A DNA stretch of 64,000 bases from Hexactinellida sp. DTS-2022 (taxonomy: Eukaryota > Porifera > Hexactinellida). Shown here one piece after another: positions 10,354-63,530 of the stretch; positions within the stretch are counted from its first letter, which is position 1, and the number at the start of each line of letters is the position of its first letter. A model generated the notes under the pieces. The model ran no database searches. It saw nothing but the letters and a program-made list of their open reading frames with translations, and was not told where the DNA came from. Made by a program: the position numbers and the translations under genes. The DNA is taken from positions 2,542,001 to 2,606,000 of the forward strand of contig JAPNXP010000012.1 of NCBI GenBank assembly GCA_028753945.1. The letters are read 5' to 3'.

Positions 10354-10896
10354 CTATTGTTCTTCATCTACAACTACATCAGAAGGCTCGTCATTCGGGT
10401 TAACAATAAAATTAACATTACAAGTACCAGTACGTGTTACAGAGTTAACCCAATCCTCTGAAACTACTACCTTCTCTAGCTTGAAGGGCTCAGTGGTAGA
10501 GAGATAGAGAGCTGCTTCTAACATAACATTCGGTCTTATCGTTTCGTATAAATAAGGTTTCGCGAACGATAACTTACGAAACAATTGTATCTGAATGTTT
10601 GGAACTGTAAGGACGTCAGGTAACTGATTAACAGTCTTATCTATGTCTATGGGAACATTAACAACCATTCCATGCAGTCCGTGCTGTCTCTCCCTGCCAA
10701 GAGATCTGATGTTCGTGAACTCGTGTCTGGGAGATACCAGTCTATGTTCAATCACAGTCAGACCAGATAGCTCAGGAGGGACCTCAGGGAAAGTTAAGCC
10801 ACGACACAACGCTAACTTAGGTACTCTGCCATCTTTGATGTTAATCAGACAGGTCTTACACACATACTCCATGTTGACTTTCTCATAGAGAAAAAC
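10354..10896 (-). pseudogene. Helentron DUF6570-like region (exon 2)
   Basis: The frame begins directly after the acceptor at 10897-10898 and reads VFLYEKVNMEYVCKTC, then LALCRGLTFPEVPPELSGL, LVSPRHEFTNIRSLGRERQ, HGLHGMVVNVPIDIDKTVNQ and a closing acidic stretch. This is the conserved Helitron N-terminal domain of unknown function that precedes Rep. The Cys-x-x-Cys near the start probably completes a zinc site begun in exon 1. This is one of the best preserved segments of the element, with no internal stop over about 180 codons. Confidence 0.9.
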
Positions 10897-53649: not shown

Positions 53650-54440
53650 TCAGTTAATCCAATTAATGGGAGGTGAATAGTAAGTCGGACGAATCTCTTC
53701 ATCCGGTACAAAAGGTAATGACATCAGTAGATGAATCCAATTCTTGAACTCTTTGTTTACTTGGTATAGTTTACCAAGACCTAATTTTTGTTCCTTATCG
53801 TGTGCAGCCTTGGTGAAGTGGAACCAGCACCCAAGCAATGTTTGCATAGGGAAACACAGAAATAAAGGCATTTCGTGAAGCTTTTTCAAAATCGCACATC
53901 ACTAACGATGGATTAAACTCTGAGATATAAGTACAAACTGCTGATATTACTGCTGTATAAAGTTTTTGGTTCTTTGAAGTCATAAGCATGTGTAAAGCTG
54001 GGATTGCGTGTCCTTTAACCCGAAAAAAAATCGTCGATAATTGATAGAATAATCGTGGAACTACTTTAAAGGTTGCATCAAAATGAATTACTTCAATTTC
54101 CTTCATCTTAGCAATCATTTGATCAGTAGCAAAAACAACAGCTATCTCACTACCCTCCTTAACTGTTAACCTGTATTTCCCTGAGTAGGGAGATTGCACC
54201 AAAAGTGCATCAAACTCCTCAGCAGATGAAGGTAATTTGGGTACCTGTAGCTTGCGTCCTTTCGATAAAGTACATTCAATATTCTTAAAAGTTAAAGACG
54301 ATGCCCCTGAAGAATTGCGACACCACGTGTTGAAAACTTCTCTCAAATTTTCAGAAGATTCATCAGCTGCTCGTTTGATTATAATTGCTAATAAAATTAT
54401 TTCTGAACTGTATTCATTGTCGAATGATCATGATGTTTTG
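53650..54440 (-). pseudogene. MULE transposase fragment
   Basis: Minus-strand blocks: EVIHFDATFKVVPRLFYQL (first catalytic Asp, about 54050-54110), HAIPALHMLMTSKNQKLYTA, SLVMCDFEKASRNAFISVFP (second Asp, about 53860-53920) and LGCWFHFTKAAHDKEQKLGL (CxxxH, about 53780-53840). Upstream SSENLREVFNTWC extends to about 54423. It differs from the MULE at 14 kb in sequence and lacks its terminal arrays, FLYWCH and RING fingers. One frame change near 53880. Ends were not identified. Confidence 0.88.
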
Positions 54441-57309: not shown

Positions 57310-58100
57310 ATATCGGTTGTTTGCACAATCAAAGAAGCATCAAGTACTGTTGCAGATGAGCTTTGAATATTCAGGAATAAAGCTCGCATCCCTATGCGTG
57401 CTAAGAAACATGTAGTGGAGAAGAATGATAACTTATTTCAGAATTGGCGCAAACTGATGAAAGGACGAAGTAGAAGATCAGTACCTCAAATCGCAAAGGA
57501 AAAAGAGTTTAGTGAGAACTTGAACAATCTATTTGATATTGCATCTGCAAGTGCACTAGATCTAATTTCAATTGTTGAAGACAGAAATCTTTTACAAGCA
57601 CAAACAGAAAAAGGTAGGAGGATTCATGTCTGCAATAGATATCAAACAACAAGGAATGGAACAACGCGCAAATTTAAAATTTGAAGCTACTATGCGATTG
57701 AGAAAAATTGAGGAAGAAAGAATTATTAAGTCAGATTCTTCGGTTGAGCTTGTAAGTACAAATGACGACTGGGACAGACTTGGAATTGGAACAACAGGAG
57801 CATGGGACATCAACAATACAATCTCGATGCACTGGAGTAAAACGAAGGCGACGAGGCACCAGAAAGTTAGTTACACCAAAATTACCCTCCGAACTTGATC
57901 GTACAAAGACTTCTGATAGGAACACAGTCTTCCTACTATCAGAAACAGCAGCAAGTCTTGTGTTGACCCAGCAGAACTTGCAATTAGTCGTGATTCGATC
58001 CGTCGTTCTCGTATAAAACATCGTGAAAAAACTGCTAATATAATAAAGAATCATTTGGCCCAAAATCATCTATGATTGTATATTGGGATATCAAGGTTCT
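57310..58100 (+). pseudogene. Unnamed RNase H-fold (hAT-like) protein, 5' part
   Basis: Reads IKEASSTVADEL, NKARIPMRAKKHVVEKND, LFQNWRKLMKGRS, NLFDIASASALDLISIVED, LLQAQTEKGRR, then in another frame FMSAIDIKQQGMEQRANL and later LPSELDRTKTSDRNTVFLLS, SRDSIRRSRIKHREKTANII and IVYWDIKV. These blocks match the N-terminal half of a protein family I know from arthropod and cnidarian genomes, without an assigned function and probably derived from a transposase. It breaks off at the RAG1-like element. At least three frameshifts. Confidence 0.7.
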
Positions 58101-58114
58101 CACAGTGGGGAAAA

Positions 58115-58445
58115 ACAGGTATATCAGCCATAATAGGTATTTAGGTACAAGTTAGGTCTATTAAATATATTAGTTGCCTATGGGTTATAACATATAGCGA
58201 GTTGATTGGCAACAATTGTTTTTTGATATGGTTTCCAGTATTCGAATTATGATGACGTAGATGCACAATGTTTAAAATTAGGTACACAGCCGTAATAGGA
58301 TTCTAGATACATAGGTATTAGTGGATTAATTGTATTATCTGCCTATGGGTTATCACATATAACGAGTTGATTGGCAACAACAAAAAATTTGATATGATTT
58401 ATATTATTCCAGTTGTGATGACTTAGCAAAAATTATTAAATTTTC
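58115..58445 (+). repeat. Direct repeat, two units of about 155 bp
   Basis: Units share CAGCCATAATAGG or CAGCCGTAATAGG, TTGCCTATGGGTTATAACAT and GAGTTGATTGGCAACAA. They lie just inside the left end of the RAG1-like element and repeat part of its terminal sequence. Confidence 0.7.
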
Positions 58446-58699
58446 ATTTCACCAATATTTTAATTATAATGAACGAAATAGTTGAACTAGTCATACTAGT
58501 TGTGTACGTCGATAAATGGATTACAGATGAACGAGTTGCAAGGTATTTTTCACTATGAAAGAAACTAAGAATCTAGTATTAGACCATAACTAAACTTTGA
58601 AAAAGTTCTTCATTTTTTGAAAGATGGTTTGATGTTTTTTTACACTTCTTGCTTCCAATAAGCTTTCTTTGGGAGTCAAATTGAGAAGTTAGAGGAATA

Positions 58700-61020
58700 A
58701 AGATATCTTAAATATTCTGTTCGAAAGAAAATTTCCTGGCTAATTGTTCGCGGTAACGTCGAATATGCTTATGACTCCAGACCTTCTTCTGAGAATGATT
58801 TCATTCCTCTACCATCATTGTACTCTTCAATCAATTGAGCAGCATGAGCTAGTATATTATGCAAGGTAGGAGTGATACTAACCCAAGGAAATATGACGAT
58901 TATTGATTCGTAAGTATCTCTACACAATGTTGCAAATTTTTCGATATCGATTCGCTCTTCACAGTTAAATACACCCAGTATAACTAGGGTGACCATTGTC
59001 CAGTTTTTGGGCAAAATTTAAAATTGTCCAGGTTTGTGATTTGTCCAGTTTTTGTCCAGTTTTTTCCTCAAAATTTGGAATCGGTCCAGTTTTGTCCTTT
59101 TTTGAGCACCCAGTCATTTTATATAAGTAATATGACTAATTTTTGACTTATATTCCTTTATGTAATGATTCTAATTGCATGTGATTGCGGTATATTCGGT
59201 TATCGATAATTTTGTACAGGACTGGTCATTTTATATGGAACCATAACCCAACCTAAATTTCAAGTTTCATATTAGTATTCTCAAAATTACATCTTGCATG
59301 TCTAATTCTTCATTATTTTTTGTATTATAACTCCTGGAATTATATCAAAATATTATTTTCCCAATCTCCAAAAAAATTCATAGTTTGTCTCATTTGTATT
59401 CCTCATTTATCAAAGAAATTTGTCAACTTCATTTCAACATTTGTATTTATATTTTCATTTTATTTCTTATGATATATCAGAATATTTAAAGTTCTTATTT
59501 TGTAATATTGTAGTAATTGGGCTATAAATTATATGGAATAAGCTCACGGTAATACGAATTGGAAGGTAGTACAGAAAACTTTTGATAGTCCCCTGATTTA
59601 GATATTAACAAGAGTGCCTATAAACTGAGGTATATTTTCTATATTACTAAAGTAGAATAGAGTATAACAATGGCTTACCGTGAATTTGAGTGAACAATTT
59701 TAACATGAAATTATATACTCTTATATATCAGAGTATGGAATATACAATTTTAGCACTCCTACGCTCATAATATGAGATTTATCGCGGTGTTAGATTTGTC
59801 CAGTTTTTATCCAGTTTTTGGATTTTAAGTGTACAGGAATGTCCAGTTTTTTTGGCCAAAAAATGGAAAATGTCCAGGTTTTCGGTCAAAGCCATCTGGT
59901 TACCCTAAGTATAGCAGCTAAATTTGTGTATATAATGTTCAGTGGAATGTGATATTCACAAGGAATTAACGTTGTGATCCAGTAAAAATATCATTTTTAT
60001 TATTGCCCATTCGTTGAAAGCAACTCCGAGCCACATTTCCTATCGAAGTTGTACCTCCTTGAGTATAAGGACAGTCTATTTTAATGTGTATATTTTCCCA
60101 GAGGAAGCAACGGACAAACACCATTTATTGACGAACTTTGGCTTTGGATGATGCCCATTTTTTCTCTCCAGCTTGTAAATGGTATACCAGATGCATAAAC
60201 CATCCAAATATTCTCAAGTATCCATGGAGAGGGGAAACTGAAAGAATATTTTTCTCTGATTTCGGTTTATGTGTAATTCCAAATCTATCTTTGCTCGAAA
60301 GAGAAAGAAATTCTTCTTCATCAGTGTCTTCAATTATCTCAAATGCAGAATCAATTGAAATTTGAAAGGTTAATAGGGAAACCCTACTTAATAAGATCAA
60401 TATCCTTCAATTGATCTCGAGTTGATGTAAATAAGTGGCAAAATGCTCCACCTGATCCGTCTAAGATAGATGCCATTCTAGTATCAAATAAGCACCTTAT
60501 GAGTTCGATATTAACAATTCCAGCAGTTAATTGGATTACATCTACTTTTAAACTTTTACTATTAGGATTAATTATAGAATCCATTAAATACTTAACGATA
60601 TCTTCGCTTTCACCTAATGCCAATATGGCAACTGGTCTCATAGAAAAAGGGGAATTTGGAGAAGGGTTCGTCCATAAAGTGTTCCCTAGATAATCTTTTA
60701 GCCAGAGTATTCTAAATGCGAACAAGAGAAAACATTTAGTTGTGAAGTCTGGATGATTTTGCATTTGGTTGTAAACCGTGTGTGATCCTGAGCCATCTAA
60801 ACCATCAGTTAGCTTTGCGGTAAGAGGATAATTAGCATTTTCAGATATTTCCCCCTCAACTATCTGGCGAATTGTTTGAGCTACGATCAATTTGTAAGGA
60901 AGGTAGATACCACCTTGAGTGCCAAGGTCTTTGTGAAAATATTTCATTTCATTTACTAAACAGTTGTCCTGACGAAATATGGCAACTCTGTTGTAAGATG
61001 AGATTAAAATATTATCTTGC
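58700..61020 (-). pseudogene. RAG1-like transposase, core region
   Basis: In order on the minus strand: ILISSYNRVAIFRQDNCLVN, YPLTAKLTDGLDGSGSH (first catalytic Asp of RAG1-type cores, about 60806), LWTNPSPNSPFSMRPVAILA, ASILDGSGGAFCHLFTST (RAG1 zinc-site region; Phe replaces the second Cys), RFGITHKPKSEKNILS, SPLHGYLRIFGWFMHLVYHL (RAG1 has Asp-Ala-Leu-His here; this copy has Ser-Pro-Leu-His), TQGGTTSIGNVARSCFQRM (RAG1 GNFAR block), TLHNILAHAAQLIEE and MKSFSEEGLES (third catalytic Glu, about 58789), ending HKHIRRYREQLARKFS. Frames change several times. RAG1 and Transib proteins cut DNA next to CACAGTG-type signals. Confidence 0.82.
58985..59907. mobile_element. hAT-type MITE inside the RAG1-like gene, 923 bp
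   Basis: Ends TAGGGTGACCA and TGGTTACCCTA with flanks AGTATAAC and AGTATAGC (7 of 8 bases). TTGTCCAGTTTTT motifs are repeated near both ends. It separates the FQRMGNNKNDIF part of the RAG1-like frame from LGVFNCEERIDIEKFATLC. Confidence 0.88.
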
Positions 61021-61114
61021 TATAAAAAACGTCTCAATTCCCGTTAATTGAGTTTCCCAATTGAAAGAAAATCCAATAAGAACAAGGAATTTCTATCAGA
61101 CAGGCATGTATTGT

Positions 61115-61606
61115 TCAGTTTTCCATACGCTCCCTTCTCAAAATTTCTTTGCAAACGCCATGTGTAGTATAATCCTTTTCTTCATTGGGAATTAGTATTA
61201 TACATAAAGATGCCACTGCCTTTGGTGTAAATTCCTCAAGTTCAGCTATGGACTTTACGAGTCGGTGTCTAAGGTGTAACTTTAGAAGTGGCGTTCGGAT
61301 TTCTTTATTGGAATCAAGTTCAAACATGAGTTTTGGCGTCGGCTCAGTTGAAAAATCGGATGACTTTCGCTTCTTCAAGCTCGATGTCTGAGTAAATGGA
61401 ATATTAATGAAGTGCATTAGTTCCCAACTCCTTGTATCACCATTCTGCACAATTTTTCTTCTAGTGTCCTCGAGATGAATTAACTTAGAACGTATGCTAG
61501 GTAATTCTGTCTCCGGTAATTGGGACTCGTAGAGTATTTGTTCTGACGCTTCACGAGTATTATTGTTGCAGGATTGGAGAATGTTATACGCTTGAATATT
61601 GTTCAT
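61115..61606 (-). pseudogene. N-terminal exon of the RAG1-like gene (unknown domain)
   Basis: A clean 163-codon frame starting MNNIQAYNILQSCNNNTREA, with a UBA-like beginning (short helices, NILQSCNNNTREASEQIL), and ending GVCKEILRRERMEN. It lies directly upstream of the core, separated by about 95 bp that contains a possible acceptor (TTTTTATAG near 61020). The link to the RAG1-like core is inferred from position and orientation. No RING finger, as in vertebrate RAG1, is visible. Confidence 0.55.
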
Positions 61607-61960
61607 GTTCTCGTATAACTAATAGATTTAGAAATACCCAAAATAAAACAACACAATTTAATTATAATGTAAAAGTAACCACATAAATTTACTGAAATAA
61701 TAGCTTGAAGAATTGATGTAATTTTAGTCCGAAAGACAACTTAGAATTAATGTAAAATAAATCTGCACGGATTTGTCAATTAGCAATAAGATATAACAAT
61801 AAGAGAATTAGCTCAAGAATTAAGTAGAATAATTGTCTGGGTTGTACAAATTGGGCCATAGAAGATCGAACTCTAAGAGTAGGGGATTATGTTATTATTA
61901 TTTTATTATAATTGGTTTTATTAAAAGCAGTGAGATTCTGAAAGCATTAGAAAAAGAGAT

Positions 61961-62176
61961 GTGATAAATAACATGATGGAAACTAGACAAAATTTGACTG
62001 TATATAGTTTACGCACCCAACTTGAAAGCTTAATACATATTTTAGATGAGTTGATGGAACTTTATAGGTTTTCTAATTCGAAATTATGCATGGAAACCAT
62101 ACATGATAATTGGAACTCAAACGCAGTTATTTTAATTGCCAGAAGGTTTTTGGCTAAAGGAATTCTATTTCAATGA
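61961..62176 (+). other. Short unidentified frame near the right end
   Basis: A 71-codon plus-strand frame (MINNMMETRQNLTVYSLRTQ, then LHILDELMELY-like LIHILDELMELYRFSNSK) lies between the RAG1-like gene and the right CACTGTG end. It has no kelch repeats, so it is not a RAG2 counterpart. May be chance. Confidence 0.3.
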
Positions 62177-62246
62177 AAGTTAGATATCTAGAAGCAAATC
62201 GACGGAGTCCAAAATTTTACCTAATACGGCTGATTTTCCCACTGTG

Positions 62247-63530
62247 CTAGCTTCTACAAGACCTAGTGGAAGGGGAAATGTTGATCGGTTGGCAGTTCTT
62301 GTATCAGGTCAAGGAACTGCAAAGTTACTTGGTGTGCCAAAATTATCCACTGGTACAGGCGAAAATATGGCAACAGCAGTGATGAAACTGCTCCATGAAT
62401 GGAATATCAATGCCCAAATTCAAGGCATGGCTCTTGATACAAATAGTGCAAATACTGGCCTCTTAAAAGGAGCATGTGTACTTCTTCAGCAAAAGCTTGA
62501 TAAACCTCTGTTCAGCTTTGCATGTCGTCATCATATACTAGAATTGGTTGTAGACAAATGTACACTGCATGTCTTGGCCCATCAACTGGACCAGATAACC
62601 TTCTGTTCAAGAATTTCAAACGCTATTGGAAATTTATTGACAAAATTAGCTATAAACCTCTGCAGCGTGATGATTACTCAACCACTCTTCTTGTTCATGC
62701 AGATAAATTAGCGAATTTTGCAAGAAGCAGCTTGAAGTGTTTCAAGTCAGAGATGACTATCGTGAGTTGCTTGAACTCACTATAACTGCTTTTGGCGATA
62801 TACCTGCCAGAGGTATACAGTTTATAGCGCCAAGTGCATTGCACAGGTAACGATGGATGGCAAAGCTCATATTAACAATCTCACTATTTGCTCATCAAAT
62901 TGGAAATCTCTCTAACATAAACGTCGTCGTATCCTACGGTTTTCAGTGTTTGTGGTTAGCTATGTTACGCAATGGTTCACTGCCCATGTTGCAGCAATGG
63001 CACCTCTTAGTGACCCGTATTTTCTCCAGTCAATTGAGGCTTACTTGGATAGAGAAATCTCAAAAGTAGCTACCAGCTCATTCTGTAGATATCTCTGGTA
63101 CCTTAGCGAACATCTTGTAGGTTTGGCATTCTTTGATCACAGAAGGGGGCATACATGATAAGCGAGCTATGGTCCAGGCAATAAGACGAGATGGATCAGT
63201 AGATGCACCAAAACGCATCACCATTAATTTGGAAAATTAAAGCAGAAGAAACTGAGTGACTTTGTAACTTCTTCTACACTCAACTTATTTAAAGCTTTCC
63301 AATTATCAACATATTTTAAGATTGCTGAAACTGATGAATGGGCTACATGTCCTGACTTTATAGGTGCCAGTAAATGTGCTGCTGGATCATGTGTTGAAGA
63401 TGATTTTGCAGAGCGAGGAGTAGCCCTCATTCAATATTACAATAATGTCATTACAAAAGAAGAAAAAAACAATTTCTTCTACAAAGTGAGGAAAAGCATC
63501 GCAAAGACTTTCCAAATTCATTAACGGTAT
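62247..63530 (+). pseudogene. Unnamed RNase H-fold (hAT-like) protein, 3' part
   Basis: Continues the gene at 57310-58100: GNVDRLAVLVSGQGTAKLLG, VPKLSTGTGENMATAVMKLL, MALDTNSANTGLLKGACVLL (Asp of the RNase H fold), LFSFACRHHILELVV, CLGPSTGPDNLLFKNFKRYW, ALHR and RWMAKLILTISLF, FVVSYVTQWFTAHVAAMAPL, YLWYLSEHLVGLAFFDHR, SSTLNLFKAFQLSTYF and SCVEDDFAERGVALIQYYNN. The frame changes at least four times and there are stops. The last block resembles the hAT C-terminal SxxAERxFS motif (DDFAERGVALIQ). Non-functional. Confidence 0.78.

Follow-up and report, generated by a model that had tools for sequence, protein, structure and literature searches.

A predicted Transib-type transposon family with short- and long-spaced ends in a hexactinellid sponge genome

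It is an open question whether the 12/23 rule, which governs the assembly of antibody genes, was inherited from the ends of a transposon or arose together with RAG2. A feature relevant to it lies at positions 58101 to 62246 of a 64,000-nucleotide stretch of the genome of Hexactinellida sp. DTS-2022 (contig JAPNXP010000012.1), the whole of which is called the window in the following. From its sequence the feature is predicted to be a cut-and-paste transposon of the Transib superfamily, from the group ancestral to RAG1, and its end layout resembles the 12/23 rule. The family's RAG1-core-type transposase is likely to join one short-spaced and one long-spaced end before cutting, in the manner of RAG, since in hundreds of related ends a second signal is placed at either of two set distances; the copy in the window would itself be a dead Transib.

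Ends of the element and their two spacings

The first-pass annotation of the window, made from the sequence alone, had described both ends as beginning with CACAGTG and as inverted over about 40 bp. The heptamers are present, at 58101-58107 on the plus strand and as the complement at 62240-62246, and they are inverted, but a plain 40-bp inverted repeat is not found: the two ends leave register by 10 bp after CACAGTGGG, and for this reason a repeat search does not list them. The 9-bp block common to both ends is GGAAATAGG, which in the window copy follows the heptamer after 11 bp at the transposase 5' (right) end and after 21 bp at the 3' (left) end. The parts are as follows, the blocks being those placed by the unsupervised motif search described below.

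58101..62246, minus strand (transposase sense): whole Transib copy, 4146 bp with the 923-bp nested insertion counted in
62240..62246, minus strand: 5' end heptamer CACAGTG
62229..62239, minus strand: 5' spacer, 11 bp
62220..62228, minus strand: 5' nonamer-like block, CGTATTAGG
58101..58107, plus strand: 3' end heptamer CACAGTG, reading inward
58108..58128, plus strand: 3' spacer, 21 bp
58129..58137, plus strand: 3' nonamer-like block, CATAATAGG

The host genome (112.4 Mb in 18 contigs) was searched with the 211-aa core frame of the window copy, which gave at least 150 matches, the window included; this is a lower bound, the 150 being every candidate scored out of 435 candidates. Fifty-five loci bearing an open reading frame (ORF) were read, among them the window's own (L009). 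A core-identity threshold of 80% sorts them into 28 lineages and one of 70% into 23, and the median identity of the core proteins is 45%. Candidate ends sought in these loci gave 26 ORF-bearing pairs, of which 20 were kept, their 5-bp target-site duplications being exact (18 pairs) or off by a single mismatch (two pairs), and six were dropped (L011, L027, L032, L059, L067 and L072); the dropped L067 and L072 nevertheless show spacings of 11 and 20-21. A DNA search with the left end covered 17 loci (L037-L053, L037 being the end of L013): eight were kept, adding as many exact duplications, five were without an acceptable mate and four had none. L069, taken together with L086, contributes one more exact duplication. 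The other copies, too, end in CACAGTG and have 5-bp duplications, the two things which the first-pass annotation had proposed to look for. The 27 exact duplications have a G+C content of 44%, versus 36% in the sequence compared, T is found at position 4 in 19 of them, and their column majorities, C-A-G/C-T-G, form a palindrome.

In the relatives the spacing is 11 bp on the transposase 5' side and 20-21 bp on the 3' side. Between the two ends of a pair the position of the block differs by 9 or 10 bp in 26 of the 28 pairs selected by their duplications, and these pairs are drawn from 17 of the 28 lineages (L069 counted). Where an ORF-bearing pair has a clear offset, it is the transposase 3' end that has the longer distance; the short copies are uninformative on this polarity, their orientation having been set by similarity to the 3' end of the window copy. 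An unsupervised motif search, run without class labels on 27 5' and as many 3' ends (25 of the 28 lineages, some repeated; near-duplicates and L078 excluded), recovered GGAAATAGG, with spacers of 10-12 bp in 21 of the 5' ends and of 20-21 bp in 23 of the 3' ends. A fixed weight table gives a spacer of 10-11 in 19 of the 27 5' ends and of 20-21 in 25 of the 27 3' ends.

The same two spacings are seen genome-wide. The pattern CACAGTGG, followed by 2-32 bases and GGRARTAGG, has 564 matches and its reversed control none; the spacer is 11 in 181 matches and 20 or 21 in 343, together 524. Among 100 listed places there are 21 facing pairs (at most 4.5 kb apart), 20 of them combining a short end with a long one, and the single long-plus-long pair has two spacers apparently from different lineages. 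An end pattern for the window lineage and its sister lineage (L013) gave 46 matches, against none for the reversed control, with total match lengths of 26 (21 ends), 36 (24 ends) and 35 (one end); all 13 facing pairs of these two lineages are mixed.

Such an asymmetry might also be inherited baggage, the ends of an ancestor having been unequal by chance and the transposase being indifferent to spacing. Elements are copied as units, so mixed ends persist by descent, and a passage of PMC7204232 holds that asymmetry of the terminal inverted repeats probably matters rather little to the RAGL proteins of invertebrates. However, the spacer sequences have drifted (mean identity 39% for 21 5' ends and 45% for 20 3' ends, all placed within a set range), yet they keep lengths of 11 and 20-21 across cores as divergent as those described above, and spacers of 13-18 bp account for just 4 of the 564 matches of the unrestricted pattern. 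The nonamer-like block has mean identities of 61% (5' ends) and 65% (3' ends), values biased upward by the placing of the block by similarity. We judge a transposase indifferent to spacing unlikely, though it has to be taken seriously.

Several observations weigh against the pairing of short with long ends. Mixed pairs alone are no proof of a rule, since the two ends of an element are passed on together. Of the 28 pairs, two are deviant, L061 with an offset of 14 and L077 with a best offset of -1 in the scan (by eye L077 is compatible with 11/20), and L015 and L064, within the other 26, tie with other offsets. Off the main spacings in the unsupervised run are 6 of the 27 5' ends and 4 of the 27 3' ends, and for most of these a weaker block can be seen by eye where it is expected, the exception being the L061 5' end, with its block at 7. 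L078 carries at position 508, on the transposase 5' side, a long-type end (20-bp spacer) without a good mate, which belongs either to a rearranged copy or to a neighbour. Nor is the 11/20 layout unique, asymmetric Transib ends having been reported already.

In the pairing which we consider likely, a transposase dimer would bind both ends via the heptamer and, via a domain resembling the RAG1 nonamer-binding domain (NBD), the nonamer-like block; as the block of one end is set deeper than that of the other by roughly one helical turn, the dimer would probably take one end of each kind. Cleavage beside the heptamer, which may involve a nick and a hairpin, the mechanism published for HzTransib, would be followed by insertion with a 5-bp stagger. 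Layout, residues and 5-bp duplications are seen directly, and the remaining steps are modelled on RAG and HzTransib. A pairing rule may be read from the layout, the NBD-like domain may read the GGAAATAGG block, the one-turn difference may matter for synapsis, and RAG2 is probably not needed by the family. A stronger proposal, quite possible and put forward tentatively, is that of a living 11/20 rule, in which a RAG1-type transposase with its own NBD and no RAG2 would enforce short-plus-long pairing, kept while at least 17 lineages radiated within one genome. The essence of the 12/23 rule would then be older than RAG2 and independent of it, and the rule, if it holds, would be testable in a single-protein system. 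The genome provides natural end signals by the hundred, set at two fixed spacings, together with many lineages, eight apparently complete elements and copies that are young and nearly identical.

The transposase and its superfamily

A profile was built from 13 long transposase frames of 616-757 aa. It matches HzTransib best (156 bits, E 7.6e-45), followed by amphioxus RAG1L (66 bits, E 1.5e-17) and vertebrate RAG1 (58 bits, E 6.6e-15); the core frame of the window alone gives the same order of matches, both weak (E 0.0016, then 0.071). With a cut-off of E 1, the Pfam family RAG1 (PF12940) matches 12 of the 13 long relatives (best value 1.9e-9); it matches none of the seven window frames scanned. 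The proposal of a RAG1/Transib-superfamily element with ends of the recombination signal sequence (RSS) type is borne out by these matches, while the label RAG1-like, taken in the narrow sense of the RAG1L/RAG2L elements, is not. That the feature belongs to another DDE superfamily and ends in CACAGTG by chance is hardly conceivable: no support for it was found, no other DDE transposase family appears beside PF12940 in the Pfam list of the 13 long relatives, taken to the same cut-off, and the RAG1-type profile, the 5-bp duplications and the 564 structured ends versus none in the control contradict it. The same list for the 13 relatives holds none of the N-terminal non-core domains of RAG1 (RING etc.).

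In the numbering of L026, the catalytic residues D270 and D374 are found in all 13 long frames, and E627 in all 12 which reach that position. We take them to correspond to RAG1 D600, D708 and E962, on the basis of profile alignments and of the usual RAG1 numbering. The zinc cysteines and histidines are likewise conserved in the alignment of the long frames.

The N-terminal stretch of the relatives has its best match in the RAG1 NBD-DNA structure 3gna (E 1.2e-4); the top 16 rows of this search are all RAG1, and the first non-RAG1 row has an E of 0.083. Between the zinc cysteines and SPLH lies a stretch of 48 positions which aligns through BbRAG1L and which in HzTransib is 13 residues long. A C-terminal Cx2Cx3GHxnC zinc knuckle was found by regular expression in 7 of the 20 proteins scanned (L026, L075, L077, L079, L080, L081 and L082) and is absent from L016, L029, L058, L064 and L069. 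The NBD match, the long zinc stretch and the knuckle of some members would all suit a true RAG1L element of the RAG1L/RAG2L lineage which has lost its RAG2L. This origin is improbable, given that the profile prefers HzTransib over RAG1L by 90 bits and that the 48-position stretch, searched alone, matched no RAG chain. A RAG2 profile also found no match in the genome, in a search which found none in the control genomes either and is therefore blind.

Eight copies are apparently complete (L026, L029, L064, L069 with its 5' end in L086, L076, L077, L079 and L081): each has its two ends, duplications that match, and a frame which runs for 711-749 aa from stop to stop. Each of the seven in one piece (2975-3343 bp) has one transposase frame, which makes this a single-gene element; no second long frame is found in them, other frames measuring at most 123 aa from stop to stop, a limit which leaves room for genes split into short exons. 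The first-pass annotation had likewise taken the element to lack a RAG2-like gene. Six short copies, too small to hold the gene, are nearly identical (five alignments to L041, 99.1-99.6% identity) and their 5-bp duplications all differ, so the family has been recently mobile. In prokaryote and viral collections no relative was confirmed by tblastn.

The window copy and its surroundings

The window copy is 95.2% identical to L010 across 3167 aligned bases, the insertion excluded. On its minus strand the first-pass annotation had read the blocks DGLDGSGSH, PNSPFSMRPVAIL, GAFCHL, SPLHGYL, GNVAR, LHNILAH and SEEGLES, and all are present; the coding region which they were taken to form is, however, split into several broken frames (ORF list) and interrupted at 58985-59907.

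61115..61618, minus strand: N-terminal transposase frame, 167 aa (ORF list)
60384..61019, minus strand: core transposase frame, 211 aa, with the first catalytic D (DGLDGSG) and the second (LFDTRM)
60125..60406, minus strand: zinc-region frame with SPLHGYL
60026..60040, minus strand: GNVAR block, read by hand, outside all listed frames of at least 60 aa
58769..59017, minus strand: C-terminal frame with LHNILAH and SEEGLES (catalytic E), its start inside the nested insertion
58985..59907, no strand assigned: nested non-autonomous repeat, 923 bp, TAGGGTGACCA...TGGTTACCCTA, flanked by AGTATAAC/AGTATAGC
58274..58426, plus strand: imperfect direct repeat (76%, self match) of the 3' subterminal region 58111-58260
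57756..58100, plus strand: left flank, interrupted target gene
62247..62711, plus strand: right flank, apparently of the same target gene

The N-terminal frame is by eye the counterpart of the NBD-like stretch of the relatives, and itself lies outside the alignment searched; the core frame has F in place of the second zinc cysteine (GAFCHLF). As the frame is broken, the copy is probably inactive. The tandem 76% duplication of the 3' subterminal region (58111-58426) is also found in two relatives, on contigs C13 and C18.

The nested repeat lies inside the C-terminal part of the transposase region. It has TAGGGTRACCA inverted ends and an imperfect 8-bp duplication (AGTATAAC/AGTATAGC), and 63 genome matches including itself, seven others being nearly full length at 86-91% identity. 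From the type of ends and duplication we presume it to be hAT-like. An intron was considered for these 923 bp and ruled out, the sequence being a dispersed repeat with its own ends.

No intact 5-bp duplication flanks the window copy, the sequences being GTTCT on the left and CTAGC on the right. The flanking frame is continuous across the element if a 2-bp overlap (CT) is taken, giving an open stretch of 173 aa; because the join without overlap leaves another frame open too (171 aa), an eroded target duplication can only be conjectured. The interrupted gene is presumably hAT-like. Compared with the genome DNA, the left flank matches only the window itself, and no paralogous copy that could show the empty site was found. 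The window appears to be rich in transposons: the frame at 53795-54427 is presumably MULE-type transposase-like, and that at 10354-10896 we take to be Helitron-associated-protein-like. As a separate observation on the genome, the string (TTAGG)6, TTAGG being the common insect telomere repeat, has no match, and the reversed string (GGATT)6 has 53.

Comparison with known systems

HzTransib of Helicoverpa zea (structures 6pqn and others) is the best profile match and shares the RAG1-core-type DDE transposase and, according to the literature, CAC-type ends and 5-bp duplications. Its chain has 497 residues, whereas the unbroken stop-to-stop frames here have 711-757 aa; the family here adds the NBD-like N-terminus and, in some lineages, the terminal zinc knuckle, and has the 48-position zinc-region stretch in place of 13 residues. 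Among the Transibs, those of Subgroup I are all asymmetric-ended, while Subgroup II includes both kinds (PMC9435367, Tao et al. 2022). Subgroup I resembles the present family in its asymmetric ends, and may resemble it in the CCGHC-type C-terminal knuckle of some members, in Subgroup I part of the CTT1 tail, and in the zinc-region stretch (PMC9435367); here the knuckle is confined to part of the family and is at most a putative counterpart of the RAG1L tail, and as to the alpha11-alpha12 region of Subgroup I, the stretch aligns through BbRAG1L yet has no RAG match alone. It is typical of autonomous Transibs to occur as a single copy or, at most, as a few, according to the portion of Kapitonov and Koonin (PMC4411706) consulted.

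Five earlier Transibs with 12/23-type ends are named in the excerpts of PMC8355894: Drosophila melanogaster Transib5 and Anopheles gambiae Transib2, N1, N2 and N3. As described there, they too have a heptamer and a second block at two distances about one helical turn apart; unlike here, their spacers are 12 and 23 +/- 1 and some of their heptamers and nonamers equal the vertebrate ones. The family here has 11 and 20-21 with GGAAATAGG, its end pairs being established for 17 lineages within a single genome; the comparison is one by description. In the titles and abstracts searched for Transib ends no description of an 11/20 layout was found, the original 2005 Transib figures lying outside this comparison.

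AanRAGL of Aureococcus and the ProtoRAG RAGL transposons have asymmetric bipartite ends and 5-bp duplications (PMC8289069, in the part considered, and PMC9435367). For AanRAGL a spacing of 10/19 from the heptamer can be computed from the published 13-bp element plus 4/13 bp (same sources). Unlike the family here, both carry RAG2L and differ in their block sequences, and the spacers of ProtoRAG are 27/31. With vertebrate RAG1/RAG2 and the 12/23 RSS the family shares CACAGTG, which is the consensus heptamer, the use of two spacings and the NBD homology; it differs in the nonamer sequence, in having 11/20-21 versus 12/23 and in that no RAG2 is seen. The family is of a known type, the asymmetric-ended Transib, and its set of ends is unusual in size and regularity.

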